Origin: Candidatus Auribacterota bacterium
GTDB taxonomy: Bacteria > Auribacterota > Tritonobacteria > UBA1439
NCBI GenBank assembly: GCA_026392015.1
Contig: JAPLCW010000185.1
Location: forward strand, 1 to 64,000
Direction of reading: 5' to 3'
Length of the DNA: 64,000 nucleotides
The notes beneath the pieces are model-generated. The model was not told the origin of the DNA, ran no database searches, and saw only the letters and a program-made list of their open reading frames with translations. Shown in pieces: positions 1 to 61,855 of this stretch. The position numbers and the translations under genes are program-made. Every line of letters begins with the position of its first letter. Position 1 is the stretch's first letter.

Positions 1-372
1 TACTACCTATTTCAATCTGAGACATCACCGGGCGGGACACTTGTATCAGGGGAGGTTCAAGGCGATCGTTGTGGAAGCGGATGAGTATTTGAAGGAATTG
101 AGCCGGTATCTGCATCTCAATCCGGTGCGGCTCAAGAGGTACAATGAATTGACGGTGGAAGATAAGGCCGGGATACTCAAAGAATATGGATGGAGCAGTC
201 TGCCGGGGTACCTGGGGATAACGAAGCAGGATGAATTAGTGACATACGGAACGGTATTAGGGTGCATGGGAGGAAATACCAGGGAGGGAAAGAAGCGATG
301 GTGAATGACAAGAGACTCGCTCAACGGGTGGAGAAGATTTTTAAAAGCACTCAGTTAATAGTAGAGGTCTGA
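1..372 (+). pseudogene. REP-associated (HUH/Y1) transposase, 5'-truncated by window edge and internally deleted
   Basis: The frame from base 2 to the stop at 302-304 encodes a protein closely matching residues 84 to about 180 of the intact transposase at 33567-34580, including GHLYQGRFKA and SRYLHLNPVR. The homology then jumps: a different frame from 298 to the stop at 370-372 encodes KRLAQRVEKIF..TQLIV, which matches the last residues of the intact protein. About 130 residues, including the DnaA-like C-terminal domain, are therefore missing, and the two parts are out of frame. Just downstream, ctgaccctgat (370-380) resembles the right-end inverted repeat of the intact element. The HUH motif lies outside the window. 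I infer a dead copy of the same transposon family, inserted in the gene whose tail follows. Confidence 0.85.
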
Positions 373-385
373 CCCTGATGCTGCT

Positions 386-568
386 GATGCTGTCCAGCAA
401 CCGAGCACGGGTCCCGGCCCGACGATGAAGACATTGAGGGAGATTTACGACGACATCAAGGCGAAGTTAGACCAGTGCGGAGCGACCGCCGCCGATGTAA
501 AAACGGGCAAAACCTTTTTCTGCACGCAGGCGGGAAGCTGGGGAGTGCAGACAGGGACAGTAGAATAA
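386..568 (+). pseudogene. C-terminal remnant of an exported protein with the shared N-terminal module
   Basis: The frame ending at the taa stop 566-568 encodes TGPGPTMKTLREIYDDI, a segment with one Cys, then FFCTQAGSWGVQTGT and the stop. This matches residues 64-115 of the protein at 57492-58583 and the equivalent part of the protein at 60320-61105, where the segment is followed by a Pro/Thr linker and a C-terminal domain. Here translation stops right after the module, so either this paralogue never had a C-terminal domain or it was lost. The first half is replaced by the transposase relic just upstream. There is no start signal, so it is treated as non-functional. Confidence 0.75.
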
Positions 569-33496: not shown

Positions 33497-34594
33497 ATCA
33501 GGGTCACACCCTAAATAATAAGTAATACAGATTGAAAAAAGGATTGATGTGTACTAAAGTTACAGAATGGTAAGACCATTCAGGATAGAGTATCCCAACG
33601 CCTGGTATCATGTAACCTGCCGGGGAATTGAACGATCAAGTATTTTTCGGGATGATAATGACCAAAAGAGATTCCTTGAAGCTTTGGGGAAAAGCACAGA
33701 GGTATTCAGAGTGGAAGTGCATAGCTATGTGCTGATGAGCAATCACTTCCATTTTTTATTGAAGACACCAGAGGCGAATCTAAGCCGTTTCATGCAGCGC
33801 TTTAATACGGCATACACCACCTATTTCAATCTCCGCCATAAGAGGGCAGGACATTTATACCAGGGAAGATATAAAGCGCTTCTTGTGGAAGCGGATGCGT
33901 ATTTACTGGAGCTGAGCCGATATATTCATCTTAATCCTGTCCGGATAAAGAAATACTGTGAGCTTCCGACAGCAGAGCAATGGGATATGCTCAAGAAGTA
34001 TCGCTGGAGTAGCTTGTGCGCCTACATCAGGGGTAACGGCAGAGATGAATTTATGCATTATGGCATGGTGTTAGATTATATGGGTGGAGATGACAGAAAG
34101 GGGAGGGAGAGATATCAGGATTTTGTCGTAAAGGGATTGTCTGGCAAATTGGAAAGCCCCCTGAAAGCGGCAAGAGAGAACGCGATCCTGGGATCGGATA
34201 GTTTTGTTGTATGGGTGAAGGAGCTATTCCTTTCTGGGGAGGGATTTAGGCCTCAAGCCTACTCTCACTTGAAGACAATCAGGGAGCCGGTGGAAATCAG
34301 GAAGATAGCGGAAGCGGTGGCCAGAGAATATGGGATTGAAGCGGAGGAGATTATCAAGAAGAGGTCGAAGTTCAGGGAAGCTCGACAAGTGTTGCTGGAA
34401 ATCAGTTACCGTCTTAATTTGAGGAAGAAAAGCATGCGTCAGATGGGTGCTGAGTTGGGTGGAATCAGTGGGGAACAAATTAGTCAAGCACACAATGCTA
34501 TTCAGGCGAAGCTTCAGCGAGATAGCAGATTGCAAAGAAGAATAGAGACACTATTTAGTCAGCTTCAACTTATTATTTAGGGTGTGACCCTGAT
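33497..34594 (+). mobile_element. Intact REP-type transposase element with 27-bp perfect inverted repeats
   Basis: Bases 33497-33523 (beginning atcagggtcacaccctaaa) are the exact reverse complement of 34568-34594, over 27 bp. The right copy includes the transposase stop codon. A partial extra copy aaaagatcagg stands just outside the left end. The enclosed gene is intact. The right end lies 38 bp before the YfhO gene start at 34633. No target duplication is obvious. Confidence 0.85.
33567..34580 (+). CDS. REP-associated Y1/HUH transposase with DnaA-like C-terminal domain
   Basis: A 337-residue protein. Residues 1-130 form the Y1 (IS200-like) HUH nuclease domain: NAWYHVTCRG, then VLMSNHFHFLL with H60-F-H62 as the metal-binding pair, then GHLYQGRYKALLVE and SRYIHLNPVR. 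The catalytic Tyr is probably in one of these last two motifs. Residues about 240-325 (IRKIAEAVAREYGIEAEEI, SKFREARQVLLEISYRL, MGAELGGISGEQISQAHNAI) resemble the DnaA C-terminal duplex-binding domain, as in many longer members of the family. It acts on single-stranded DNA by forming a 5'-phosphotyrosine link. ATG 33567 lacks a good ribosome-binding site, as usual for low-expressed transposases. A decayed relative lies at the window start. Confidence 0.92.
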   Translation: MVRPFRIEYPNAWYHVTCRGIERSSIFRDDNDQKRFLEALGKSTEVFRVEVHSYVLMSNHFHFLLKTPEANLSRFMQRFNTAYTTYFNLRHKRAGHLYQGRYKALLVEADAYLLELSRYIHLNPVRIKKYCELPTAEQWDMLKKYRWSSLCAYIRGNGRDEFMHYGMVLDYMGGDDRKGRERYQDFVVKGLSGKLESPLKAARENAILGSDSFVVWVKELFLSGEGFRPQAYSHLKTIREPVEIRKIAEAVAREYGIEAEEIIKKRSKFREARQVLLEISYRLNLRKKSMRQMGAELGGISGEQISQAHNAIQAKLQRDSRLQRRIETLFSQLQLII

Positions 34595-57491: not shown

Positions 57492-58583
57492 ATGAGAGCA
57501 ACATTAGCGGTGGTTGTAAGCGTGATGATTGCGGCGAGTTTGTACGGCACGGTGGTTGCGGGGAACCTGGATTCCGCCGGCGCACCATCAGGGGGAAGCG
57601 GGATGTATTCACTCTCACAGATCTATGATTACCTGAACTCGGGGATAAAGGCAACACCTGTCCCCAGTTTCCAGGGACCAGGTGCAGCCCCCGGCTCGAC
57701 GATGAAGACCACGAGGGAGATTTACGAGAGCATCGAGGCGAAGCACAACCAGTGCAATGTGACCGCTGCCCATGTTGAGGCAGGCTGGATGTTCTTCTGC
57801 ACACAATCGGGAAGCTGGGGGGTGCAGACAGGGACATTAGTTGTACCGCCAACCCCAACACCAACCATAACCCCAACCCCATCCCCATCCTCAACCGCAA
57901 CATGGTCGTTAAACGCAGCCGGCTGCAACGCCACTACCGGCTGGCATTGGTACACAACCAACGGCCGCAGTGCCTGCTGGAGCAAGACCCTCGCCGATTC
58001 AGTTTCCTGGAATAAGGGGGTGGGGAATGATAGCAGAAAGACTGGTTCCTATACCTGCACCTCCCTTGTAACATACGACCTAAAGACCCGTATGGAGGCA
58101 GCTGTTAATCAGGATTGGACCAAGATTATAACTAGTGCTGGTGATTTAAGTGCTTTGGCCATTGCAGATTGTATAGATGGCACAAAGGATCTAGTTGACT
58201 GTTCAACTAGTGTCTGCACTGGTTGGTCAAGCACCAACACCTGGCTCAGAGACTGGGCCGGAGCAGCAGGCAAATCAGCCCTGCCGTATCTGGGTGATGA
58301 TGCCGGCACTATAAATGACTACAATACTGCCTGCGCGAGTAGTTCCAATGACCTGCCTTTAGCTTGTGCTACGCCTAACGCATTCTATCTGAATCGCAAA
58401 GCCTGTAGCGATGGCGATACAAACTACAGCTGGGCTGCCGCCTGTGGCTACTCCAGCGGCGATGGCTGGTCCACGATCGCGCGGCTACTGGGCTACTATT
58501 CCTGCTCCTCCCAGGACTACAACGACACGTCGGGCACGAGCGGCAACCTAGCATTTCGCGTAGTTGCGCGGCCAGCGGAATGA
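57492..58583 (+). CDS. Exported modular protein: shared N-terminal module, PTP linker, Trp/Cys-rich domain
   Basis: A 363-residue protein with a Sec signal (residues 1-23, ending VVAG). Module A (25-115) reads NLDSAGAPSGGSGMYSLSQI, MKTTREIYESI and FFCTQSGSWGVQTGT. It is shared with 60320-61105 and with the remnant at 386-568, and from memory resembles a module found before DUF1566-like domains in other bacteria. A Pro/Thr linker (PTPTPTITPTPSP, 120-132) follows. The C-terminal domain (138-363) has 11 Cys, many Trp and Tyr, and motifs such as TGWHWYTTNGRSACWSK, FYLNRKACSDG and the ending FRVVARP. Its codons are visibly less GC-rich than the module's. The ATG has an aaggag site. Likely secreted or surface-bound; the function is unknown. 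Confidence 0.75.
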   Translation: MRATLAVVVSVMIAASLYGTVVAGNLDSAGAPSGGSGMYSLSQIYDYLNSGIKATPVPSFQGPGAAPGSTMKTTREIYESIEAKHNQCNVTAAHVEAGWMFFCTQSGSWGVQTGTLVVPPTPTPTITPTPSPSSTATWSLNAAGCNATTGWHWYTTNGRSACWSKTLADSVSWNKGVGNDSRKTGSYTCTSLVTYDLKTRMEAAVNQDWTKIITSAGDLSALAIADCIDGTKDLVDCSTSVCTGWSSTNTWLRDWAGAAGKSALPYLGDDAGTINDYNTACASSSNDLPLACATPNAFYLNRKACSDGDTNYSWAAACGYSSGDGWSTIARLLGYYSCSSQDYNDTSGTSGNLAFRVVARPAE

Positions 58584-58598
58584 TTTGGTTATTTGATG

Positions 58599-58632
58599 AT
58601 TTGGAAGCCGGGGTTTTTCCCGGCTTCCAAAT
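58599..58632 (+). terminator. Strong hairpin terminator
   Basis: atttggaagccggg pairs perfectly with cccggcttccaaat (14 bp) around a gttttt loop, 16 bases after the stop codon at 58583. A T-rich stretch (cttttct) follows 8 bases later. It probably ends transcription of the exported-protein gene. Confidence 0.75.
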
Positions 58633-58651
58633 CGGAAATCTTTTCTGAAAA

Positions 58652-58792
58652 ATGATTACACTACACAGAAGAGAAATTTTTTATCTAATTGAAGGAGAGG
58701 ACGCGAAACGATTGGCGCGGCCCCTTGGCTTGAAGCTGGTTGAGAAAAAGGTCGTTTCTCCGGGAGGCGAGGAGGACGCACAGAATAAATGA
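58652..58792 (+). CDS. Possible 46-residue small protein
   Basis: An open frame from ATG 58652 to the stop at 58790-58792, encoding a charged peptide (MITLHRREIFYLIEGEDAKR, then LARPLGLKLVEKKVVSPGGEE). The amino-acid pattern looks protein-like, with an amphipathic helix then a strand, but the ribosome site is weak and it follows directly on a terminator. It could be a relic of a larger gene. The rest of 58793-59161 is non-coding and includes ccgaaatccgaaatcc words and a gcttcgtcccgcgtagtggg stretch. Confidence 0.3.
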   Translation: MITLHRREIFYLIEGEDAKRLARPLGLKLVEKKVVSPGGEEDAQNK

Positions 58793-59161
58793 CGAAACCC
58801 GAAATCCGAAATCCAAATCAATGACGAAACCAGAATGAGGAATGACGGTTGGGAGAAAGCGTAACAGTAATTTCCAGCGGAGAAGAAAAGCTTGTAACGG
58901 GACGACGCGGCGATCCACCATTAAACGATGATTGCTTCGTCCCGCGTAGTGGGACTCGCATTGAAAATCTTTCATTATCCGCTATTTAGGAAGTTCGGAA
59001 TTGAGCCATTTTTTGTTGCTCGAACAGGCTCCTTTCTATCCTACTATTTCTGGCTCAATGGAAATATCCCATCCTTCCCTGGCCCCTTCTTTCAGGTGCC
59101 TGTAGAGGAGTTATTTCTATCTTGTCATCTGAGGAACATTACCATTCTTGTATGACAAGAG

Positions 59162-59303
59162 TTGTAAACAAAGTATAAACTTTTGGCTCTCAGAGGTGTA
59201 AACAAAGTATGCAAATCCGACATTTCTAGAATCCACCGAGAATTTTCACCTTTGCAATCATCGTTCCAAGTGTTTGGTCTGGTACTCATTACAACTATTT
59301 TTC
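59162..59303 (+). promoter_or_regulatory. Duplicated upstream region, copy 2, with two enhancer-like sites
   Basis: Copy of 56979-57118: tgtaaacaaagtataaa (59163-59179) and tgtaaacaaagtatgca (59197-59213), again exactly 34 bp apart. The downstream gaattttcaYctttgc and ctcattac stretches are conserved. Confidence 0.6.
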
Positions 59304-59327
59304 ACTAATGAAGGAAAGATTGTTAAG

Positions 59328-59344
59328 TTGGCGCGGAAAATGCA
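59328..59344 (+). promoter_or_regulatory. Sigma-54-like -24/-12 promoter
   Basis: TTGGCGCGGAAAATGCA has GG and GC doublets at the 12-base spacing. The -12 element is ATGC rather than TTGC. It lies 131 bp after the second upstream site (59197), matching the geometry of copy 1, and 60 bp before the gene start at 59405. Confidence 0.5.
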
Positions 59345-59404
59345 GGCTAATTACTTGTGGTTTTGTGAATGTGCATCGATTGTATCACTCCTGCGGAAAG
59401 AATT

Positions 59405-60229
59405 ATGACTCTCATTATCATTGCCTTGGCGCTCTTCGCAGCCTCCTTCGCTGATGCCGTACCCGCCAATTCTCCTTTTCCTCAATGCTATAATTTCCCA
59501 TTCCCCTCCGACTTGGGGAAAAACGACTACCTCCAGCACCCATGCATGGCCCCGGCGAAGATCGGTAGGATCCTTGAAGGCAACAACTTGATCTGGGGGG
59601 AGAGCATAGGATGGATCAATCTCGGGGCGACGCACGCCGAGGTGAAGATCGGCTCAAACATATTGGCGGGTTGGATCTGGTTGGAAAACTGCGGCTGGGT
59701 GTGCCTCGGCAACGGGCATCCTCTGGATGCGAGGCGCTACTCCAACCGTGGCTCCTGTGACTGGGGAGTCAACAACGATGGTCGGGGCAAGTTGTCCGGT
59801 TTTGCCTGGTCTGAAGTCACGGGCTGGATCAGTTTCCGCACCGGTCATTCGTGTGTATGCCTGGATGAGAGCGGCCAGTTTTGCGGCTATGCGTGGGGAG
59901 AGAATGCAGGGTGGATGCATTTCGGGCCTGGCAGCACAGCGCAATATCTTGCGAAGGCGGATCCCGGGCCGTGGAGAGATATCGGGCCGGAACCGGGAGG
60001 GAGACTCGCCGGGAGGCAAAATGATTCTGAAATAAGCAGTGGCTCTGTCCCCGTCACAGGCCTGAATAACAATTATGAGAGATACAACAAGGATATCCGG
60101 ACAGTCTGTCCGCTCAGGCTGGGAAAAGATGATTCCCATGCGGCTATTCGGTGTTGCGATACGCCGATTTATATAAGCAGTCTTGCCAAACTTTCTCCCA
60201 TTCGCGCTCCTCCGCGTTGCGGGTATTAG
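59405..60229 (+). CDS. Exported protein with WGENxGWxxFG repeats
   Basis: A 274-residue protein. The start at ATG 59405 gives a clean signal peptide (MTLIIIALALFAASFADAVP) with a ggaaag site. The frame's earlier ATG at 59369 would spoil it. The mature part holds four repeat-like motifs: IWGESIGWINLG (63-74), WLENCGWVCLG (92-102), FAWSEVTGWISF (133-144) and YAWGENAGWMHFG (162-174), a pattern I recall from exported proteins of Planctomycetes and other environmental bacteria, of unknown function and probably beta-structured. The tail after residue 185 lacks repeats and is low in pattern. Its promoter region is a duplicate of that before 57492, so the two are probably co-regulated. Confidence 0.75.
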   Translation: MTLIIIALALFAASFADAVPANSPFPQCYNFPFPSDLGKNDYLQHPCMAPAKIGRILEGNNLIWGESIGWINLGATHAEVKIGSNILAGWIWLENCGWVCLGNGHPLDARRYSNRGSCDWGVNNDGRGKLSGFAWSEVTGWISFRTGHSCVCLDESGQFCGYAWGENAGWMHFGPGSTAQYLAKADPGPWRDIGPEPGGRLAGRQNDSEISSGSVPVTGLNNNYERYNKDIRTVCPLRLGKDDSHAAIRCCDTPIYISSLAKLSPIRAPPRCGY

Positions 60230-60319
60230 CCATAGTTTCATTGCGAGTCCCACGAAGTGGGGCGTGAAAATCTCACCTTTATCAACTTCAAGATGAATCA
60301 AGAAAGGATTGGTGTCAAA

Positions 60320-61105
60320 ATGAGAAATTTAATCGCAGCAGCTCTGAGTTTAATGTTGATGGTTGGCCTGTCATGCGTGGCTATTGCGGGGAGTCTTGAC
60401 TCCCCCGGTGCCCCTTCCGCGGGGAGCGGGATGTACACGCTCCAGAACCTGTACGACTACCTGACAAGCGGAACGGAGCTCACGGTGCAGACCGGCTTCC
60501 AGGAGCCCACGTCAGGCCCCACCGCTGGCACCATGAAGACGACAAAGAAGATCGGGGATGATGTGAAATCCTTATTTGACCTGTGCGCAATCACGACTGC
60601 CGCAAATGTTGAATCGGGAATGCCATTCTTCTGCACGCAGCCGGGAAGCTGGGGAGTTCAGACGGGAACATTAAGCGTGCTGCCGAGACCGACAGCAACC
60701 CCAACCATAACCCCAACCCCAACCATAACCCCAACCCCAACACCAACGGGTACGCCGTCGCATGCTTGGTGCGTGGCGCTCGGCGGATGGTGGGGACCCG
60801 ACGGCCTGGGGGGGTCGGGATGTTGGTTTGGGGCGGATAGGTGGCCGTCAGGCACGTTTGTTTCGTGCGATACAATTTGTTCGGAACATGGCGCGTTAAC
60901 CTGTGATTCCAGGAACTGGAATGACACTAATTGCCAGTACTGCCTCTCCCAGCATCCCACGTTCTCTTGCAACTCCCCTTGCGGAGGTACGGTTCCACTA
61001 ATGGACAACAGATCCGAGTACTGTGGACAAAGGGCAGAGGGTTGCAACCAAAATTGCAGTCAGACTTCAAACAACGACCTGCGTTTGTGCCTTTGCAAGC
61101 AGTAG
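60320..61105 (+). CDS. Exported modular protein: shared N-terminal module, PTIT linker, Cys-rich domain
   Basis: A 261-residue protein beginning at ATG 60320 (the longer frame from 60257 has no signal sequence). Signal peptide 1-23. Module A (25-117) has SLDSPGAPSAGSGMYTLQNL, TMKTTKKIGDD and FFCTQPGSWGVQTGT. The linker (122-146) is PTATPTITPTPTITPTPTPT, encoded by an aaccccaaccataa tandem. The C-terminal domain (about 149-261) has 14 Cys, an even number suited to disulfides in an exported protein, and shows no similarity to the C-terminal domain of 57492. The two proteins thus share a module and differ in the business end. A gaaagg ribosome site is present. No copy of the sigma-54-like region precedes it, so it may be transcribed with 59405. 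Confidence 0.75.
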   Translation: MRNLIAAALSLMLMVGLSCVAIAGSLDSPGAPSAGSGMYTLQNLYDYLTSGTELTVQTGFQEPTSGPTAGTMKTTKKIGDDVKSLFDLCAITTAANVESGMPFFCTQPGSWGVQTGTLSVLPRPTATPTITPTPTITPTPTPTGTPSHAWCVALGGWWGPDGLGGSGCWFGADRWPSGTFVSCDTICSEHGALTCDSRNWNDTNCQYCLSQHPTFSCNSPCGGTVPLMDNRSEYCGQRAEGCNQNCSQTSNNDLRLCLCKQ

Positions 61106-61136: not shown

Positions 61137-61176
61137 AGCGGCAGGGAGTTTGTTGTTCGCATTGCTCCCTGCCGCT
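61137..61176 (+). terminator. Hairpin after the Cys-rich protein gene
   Basis: agcggcagggag pairs with ctccctgccgct (12 bp, 16-base loop) 31 bases after the stop at 61105. No T-run follows, so it may be a 3'-end-stabilising hairpin or a Rho-assisted end rather than a classical terminator. Confidence 0.5.
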
Positions 61177-61855
61177 GGCGGAGATAACTCCGAATCTTCG
61201 TGTAAGAAGATCCTTGCTCTTTAAGCCGGAGTAACTTCATTTTCATCTGACGAATGGATCCGGATGAAATCCCGATGATTCATCCAGATATAATGTCCGT
61301 TCGCCAGAAGACCGGGAGTTCCATGCGATGCCGCATGGCGTCGTGTCCGTTCCTAACGCTGTCTACGGTATGCAGGGCGGCCGGCGGGCGGGGATGAATG
61401 GCAACGCCGGCTTCCATCGGCGGGGAGTATGCTTTTTAAACCACGAAGGCCACAAAGAGCGCGAAGATAATATTTTTGGCTCAACACGGATTTTAGTGAT
61501 CCCAAAAATCAGCAAAATATCCCTCCCCCTCAAGGGGAAGGGGATATGCAGCGATTCCATAGTTAGTATCATTTTGCGGCGCAGTTTGTTATCCAGTTTT
61601 GGCTGCGCATATTCTTCACAAAAATCTGTGTTGAGCCATATTTTCTTACTAACTATCTTTGCGACCTTCGTGCGCTTCGGGGTAGAGACACAATTTGGTT
61701 GCGGCCAGCAGGCCGCGCTGTGTGTGTATGGTGGGCGTTGAAAATTCAATATGTGTCACAGATGAACCCAGATAAGGCACAGATATATTTGGTTGCGGCC
61801 TTTGTGCCGCGCTGTGATATACTTTTCCAAAAGAACGAGATAGTGAGGAGGAGAG
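61177..61855. other. Intergenic, nested inverted repeats
   Basis: There is no convincing gene. Outer arms ccacgaaggccacaaagagc (61441-61460) and its near-complement (about 61660-61685) enclose the element 61478-61637. Further right, ttggttgcggcc occurs at about 61697 and 61790, both followed by a ccgcgctgtg word. An agtgaggaggagag ribosome site precedes dcd. Confidence 0.5.
61478..61637. repeat. MITE-like element with ggctcaacac ends
   Basis: 160 bp, left end ggctcaacacggatttt, right end the complement of ggctcaacacagatttt, with an inner tccctccccctcaaggggaa palindrome. It is a single copy in this window and sits inside a second, outer inverted repeat. Confidence 0.7.

Follow-up and report, generated by a model that had tools for sequence, protein, structure and literature searches.

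Near the end of a 64,000-nucleotide stretch of DNA from a Candidatus Auribacterota bacterium (the window, C125:1-64000 of a 3.85 Mb metagenome-assembled genome with 216 contigs and 94% completeness), two genes encode exported proteins that begin alike and end in different ways. A dCTP deaminase encoded in the window is 89% identical to its counterparts in a Candidatus Auribacterota MAG from Lac Pavin and in an unclassified MAG, which makes that phylum very likely. The locus raises the question of whether a constant N-terminal module has been combined with exchangeable C-terminal domains, how far such a family extends, and what kind of biological system it would represent. The original prediction, which was drawn from the window only, took the layout to be that of a diversifying surface or secreted repertoire with a variable effector or binding domain.

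Two module genes and a remnant

The first module gene (57492..58583, forward strand) specifies 363 amino acids, comprising a signal peptide (57492-57554), the module (57555-57845), a proline/threonine (P/T) linker (approximately 57846-57902) and a second domain rich in Trp and Cys (57903-58580), which belongs to a '57492-type' class with 19 members in the genome. The second gene (60320..61105, forward strand; 262 amino acids from the ATG) follows the same plan with a signal peptide (60320-60382), the module (60383-60679), a P/T linker (approximately 60680-60760) and a Cys-rich second domain (60761-61102) of the class CysW, which has 48 members. A module remnant (365..568, forward strand) retains the 3′ two thirds of the module, stops right after TGTVE, lacks both the signal peptide and a second domain, and adjoins a broken Y1 transposase. 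Over the shared part, which in the remnant spans about 377-565, the three copies are 57-60% identical in pairwise comparisons and FFCTQ-x-GSWGVQTGT is invariant, which bears out the proposed common module of about 95 residues. The C-terminal parts, with 11 Cys in the 57492 protein and 14 in the 60320 protein, are unrelated in sequence, as had been claimed, and not even the profiles of the domain classes can be aligned with one another.

Neither protein scored above the cut-off in Pfam or NCBIfam or had a convincing match in the PDB, and structure prediction from the window sequences alone gave unusable models (pLDDT 42 for the module and 35 for the 57492 domain). Y1 transposases (IS200-type, REP-associated-like) are found in the window as the broken copy beside the remnant (2-304) and as an intact-looking copy at 33597-33929.

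A large and intact gene family

The module is not confined to the three copies from which it was first recognized. A module profile matched at least 150 places in the same genome (the best 150 of 227 candidates), all with E < 1e-40, and the 1.06 Mb of contigs examined contain at least 187 complete and about 17 partial modules on 68 contigs, with three of these copies in the window; a further 470 kb of other contigs added one more. These gene counts rest on stop-to-stop frame gene models and single-linkage classes. Module genes account for 4.9% of the assembly, nearly all module copies lie in open frames, and most of the 187 complete genes have a signal peptide and a ribosome-binding-like leader. 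Contigs of at least 15 kb hold 120 of the 187, and the other 67 lie on shorter contigs, the tetranucleotide make-up of which is less typical. Module genes are often neighbours: of 115 adjacent pairs no more than 3 kb apart, 113 share a strand and 91 combine different domain classes.

Purifying selection acts on the module (median dN/dS 0.17, 224 pairs), and the closest pairs of second domains mostly give values of 0.2-0.8, a rough estimate at considerable divergence. The module has no match in Pfam, NCBIfam or the PDB, profile search of the PDB included. It is more than an export leader, since in 12-13 proteins it is C-terminal, where a P/T linker separates it from a preceding LamG, DUF2341, Gly-rich or other domain.

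Relatives of the organism carry between none and two copies, namely two in G004, one in G006, two in G031 and none in the single congener compared, in whose genome (400 contigs, 83% complete) fragmentation may partly explain the absence. Outside the phylum, a divergent version with the motif ADVLSGKTFWGLTSGEWG-x-x-TGT is present in G101 (five copies in tandem) and G161 (one copy), where it is N-terminal, has a signal peptide and precedes Lcl_C or SGK-type repeat parts. Among the genomes compared, the large expansion is seen in one alone. A phage or plasmid origin was rejected, as comparison with phage and plasmid collections gave no match, apart from a single weak one in IMG/VR.

About seventeen classes of second domain

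Single-linkage clustering of the parts after the linker by blastp gave 17 clusters, or about 17 sequence-unrelated classes, one singleton of which belongs to GGGWT because its linker had been cut too far. The largest are CysW (48 members), GGGWT (fibrinogen-like, 47), Lcl_C/DUF1566 (22) and the 57492-type (19), followed by DUF2341/LamG (12), FISUMP (8), FGE-like (4) and smaller ones. The unrelatedness proposed for the two window proteins holds more widely in the family, where eight class profiles are mutually unalignable in profile-profile comparison (hhalign probability at most 1.9). Single representatives of several classes exceed curated thresholds, with 39 bits for Lcl_C (Pfam cut-off 34.9), 84.6 bits for GGGWT_bact (cut-off 30) and 76.1 bits for FISUMP (cut-off 41.65); the LamG class is likewise above its cut-off. 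In a profile search of the PDB the 57492-type domain matched nothing and CysW produced weak matches alone (best E 0.07). Within the domain classes the Cys and Trp frameworks are kept while other positions vary.

Many of the partners are of adhesive or sugar-binding types, which would point to binding. Lcl_C is an adhesin head with a C-type-lectin-like fold that binds glycosaminoglycans in the Legionella protein Lcl, and some of the second-domain classes may share the fold known for Lcl-CTD (PMC11162425). Neither toxin families (Pfam, NCBIfam) nor glycoside hydrolase or other enzyme domains were found among the class representatives scanned. Open reading frames that carry a class domain without a module number seven.

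Exchange between module and second domain

Module and second domain are, in statistical terms, nearly completely independent. Mapped onto the module tree, the domain class changes 88 times, compared with 88.2 ± 3.4 times after shuffling, and within each of six classes domain identity is uncorrelated with module identity (Mantel p ≥ 0.15). Neighbouring parts of the same genes do correlate, and the correlation decays with distance, from 0.42 (leader and signal peptide), 0.31 (signal peptide and 5′ half of the module) and 0.33 (the two module halves) to 0.11 (signal peptide and 3′ half of the module) and 0.07 (leader and 3′ half of the module); the halves of the second domains give 0.16-0.43. Since the same kind of test detects linkage between neighbouring parts, the missing linkage across the linker is not simply a consequence of low power. 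In a nearest-neighbour test, module and class still show a slight residual association, 25% against an expected 16.5%.

Individual pairs reveal where the exchanges took place. Unrelated domains follow modules that are 90-97% identical in DNA (maximum 96.6%), and in such pairs the stretch of identity has its 5′ edge either in the leader, a long way upstream, or precisely where the signal peptide meets the module, and its 3′ edge within the linker. The breakpoints that had been anticipated at the linker thus do map there; the linker is not the sole breakpoint, because recombination also occurs within the module. The linkers themselves favour ACA/ACC for Thr and CCA for Pro, whereas P/T tracts elsewhere in the genome favour ACG and CCG. 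With a median DNA identity of 67%, most module copies are old. Read from such comparisons, the exchange of module and domain can be regarded as a historical fact, whereas the way it works, presumably homologous recombination or gene conversion, and the rate at which it may run today are matters of inference.

Several known routes to protein diversity were considered and are not supported. A diversity-generating retroelement (DGR) is at odds with the sole RVT_1 match, which is fragmentary and falls short of the curated cut-off, and with the pattern of variation: a DGR would confine changes to positions 1 and 2 of NNY codons, but in all five classes tested the third positions vary roughly as much as the others or more. 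Integron cassettes were rejected on the grounds that the attC core pattern occurs in 0 of 179 downstream regions, a simple pattern that is also missing from all 895 control stretches and is of unproven sensitivity. The genome does encode an integron integrase (L161; G000:C61:6397-7680; TIGR02249, 396 bits, cut-off 265), which is not near module genes, is extended at its N-terminus by about 100 residues, and has no attC pattern nearby. Silent-cassette antigenic variation of the vls/pilE type does not fit 187 complete genes, most of them equipped with signal peptide and leader, next to the few module-less frames. G-quadruplex-driven exchange at the linker was discarded as well, as only 9 of 164 linkers fit.

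A repeated unit and its regulation

Module genes are accompanied by two further elements. A companion gene, represented in the window at 59369..60229 (forward strand), encodes a secreted protein with GWxNL-type repeats. The companion family has 60 ORFs in the contigs examined, and 48 of these immediately precede a module gene in the same orientation, the gap having a median of 101 bp (quartiles 95-115); the remaining ones are mostly cut by, or near, contig ends. About a quarter of module genes are preceded by a companion, which is common to different domain classes, and in a whole-genome search all companion copies among the matches listed are on module contigs. The pair of companion and module gene is also present once in G006, which suggests that it is the ancestral unit.

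The second element, at 61155..61246 (forward strand) in the window, lies on the 3′ side of module genes, is about 100 nt long, comprises two hairpins and a T-rich tail, and looks like a terminator. It has 101 copies in the contigs examined, nearly all tied to module genes: 77 of the 101 lie no more than 300 bp beyond the 3′ end of a module gene and in its orientation, and the element is found downstream of 88 module genes of eight domain classes, while it is absent from the module-free contigs examined. Covariation is modest, with 4 of 20 pairs changed on both sides. Group IIC introns insert after terminators, and in about eight copies of the element (e.g. L099, L100, L095, L079, L109 and L120) the hairpin is followed by a 5′ end resembling that of a group II intron (GTGCGCC...). 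The unit of companion, module gene and 3′ element was not seen to be accompanied by a transposase gene.

A regulatory input is suggested by riboswitches. Six c-di-GMP-I riboswitches exceed the cut-off in the genome, three of them directly upstream of module genes, one before prepilin-like genes and two before large secreted proteins. As module genes amount to about 5% of genes, three out of six is by a rough estimate more than expected by chance, and the link is suggestive. The three leaders at module genes are similar to one another and may reflect one event followed by duplication. Sub-threshold matches to the same riboswitch at G000:C125:76463-76553 (beyond the window) and C85:537-624 precede closely similar large secreted proteins that resemble subtilisin-type proteases.

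Alternative explanations and related systems

The reading that we favour, and consider rather likely, is that of a recombining genome-wide repertoire of about 190 Sec-exported, surface-displayed binding proteins, each composed of the constant module, a P/T linker and a second domain of one of about 17 interchangeable kinds. Surface display, ligand binding and the function of the module are inferred from the signal peptides and the types of partner domain (Lcl_C, fibrinogen-like, LamG). It is important to point out that the repertoire part of the original prediction is upheld by the unlinked modules and domains, the exchange edges in the linker, the signal peptides and the partner domains; the notion of an 'effector' is not, since no toxin-type domain was seen.

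The main rival is a cellulosome-like assembly, in which the module would dock diverse secreted proteins into scaffolds as dockerins do, making them subunits of extracellular complexes and not free surface adhesins. It owes this position to the presence of a few cohesin domains and to a matching scale and layout in Ruminococcus flavefaciens, where 222 dockerin proteins with 205 complete and 17 partial modules carry the dockerin at the C-terminus, internally or at the N-terminus (PMC2930009). The family described here resembles that set (PMC2930009) in comprising about 200 secreted proteins with one module (187 complete and 17 partial), in having the module at either end of the protein, and in the many partner domains of no known function. 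Four proteins with two cohesin domains each are encoded in the genome (C30, C160, C66 and C111), and their link to the module is suggestive; the starts of contigs C30 and C160 are near duplicates. However, 47 modules searched against Pfam gave no dockerin match, the module is unrelated in sequence and its alignment lacks the duplicated Ca-binding repeats, a scaffold with many cohesins was not seen in the genome, and one of the cohesin proteins bears its own near-threshold dockerin. In contrast with R. flavefaciens, moreover, the class representatives scanned include no glycoside hydrolases or other enzyme domains, the partners are shuffled to statistical independence, and the set has a companion gene and a 3′ element of its own. 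On balance we hold this explanation to be possible and yet unlikely.

Less probable still is a neutral inflation of the gene family, whereby the unit of companion, module gene and 3′ element spread together with its flanks and reshuffling arose as a side effect of repeats recombining, with no selection for diversity. The dedicated repeats that flank module genes, the group II intron ends after some 3′ elements, the 14 Y1 transposases of the genome and the restriction of the expansion to one genome would all fit such a scenario, but the near-universal intactness of the copies, the purifying selection on the module, the Cys/Trp frameworks that domain classes preserve amid variation elsewhere, and the lack of any transposase gene found travelling with the unit speak against it.

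A set of polymorphic toxins or effectors, which would share the layout of a constant delivery part with exchanged toxic C-termini and recombination in the linker (PMC3482391), is highly improbable, since the C-terminal classes are adhesin- or lectin-like or of no known type and none is a known toxin, the recurrent neighbour lies upstream and is constant in type and common to the classes, unlike a toxin-specific immunity gene, and stand-alone domain cassettes are almost absent in a genome with about 190 intact copies.

Among adhesins, the closest counterpart of the favoured repertoire is the Legionella collagen-like adhesin Lcl (PMC11162425), which is likewise secreted and bears an Lcl_C/DUF1566 head, the type of one class here, at the end of a stalk; Lcl is a single protein with a collagen-like stalk, whereas the present family has a P/T linker, a different constant part and about 17 heads. 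The Lcl_C/DUF1566 proteins of G101 and G161, from other phyla, share with it a divergent version of the same N-terminal module behind a signal peptide, but the one to five copies there show no reshuffling.

A model for the repertoire and its significance

In a recombining repertoire of binding proteins, tandem and dispersed duplication of an ancestral unit of companion and module-domain gene would have given rise to the copies, and homologous recombination among paralogues, by crossover or gene conversion, would swap 5′ parts against C-terminal domains. The homology could be supplied by the low-complexity DNA of the linker together with the shared 5′ and 3′ flanks. The module would serve all the proteins as a shared anchor or assembly element, whether on the cell surface or within an extracellular matrix, with the second domain as a binding head, and at least part of the set would respond to c-di-GMP and hence to surface-attached life. 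We tentatively propose, as a bolder version that has perhaps less than an even chance of being correct, a combinatorial surface-recognition repertoire: about 190 intact and expressed two-part binders whose constant and binding parts keep being reassorted as homologous recombination runs through the linker, using the 3′ element and the common 5′ flank as homology arms, and which have a matched partner encoded upstream. If true, such a system would generate diversity in a way that differs from DGRs, integrons, phase variation and silent-cassette conversion.

Some 5% of one genome is given over to a single modular design the halves of which are paired at random, which is unusual for bacteria, and an undescribed module that occurs in more than one phylum is now associated with both a partner gene and a 3′ element. 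Binding assays could draw on well over 100 naturally occurring fusions of candidate lectin or adhesin domains, and the family is also a natural case for how recombination may build large receptor-like repertoires.
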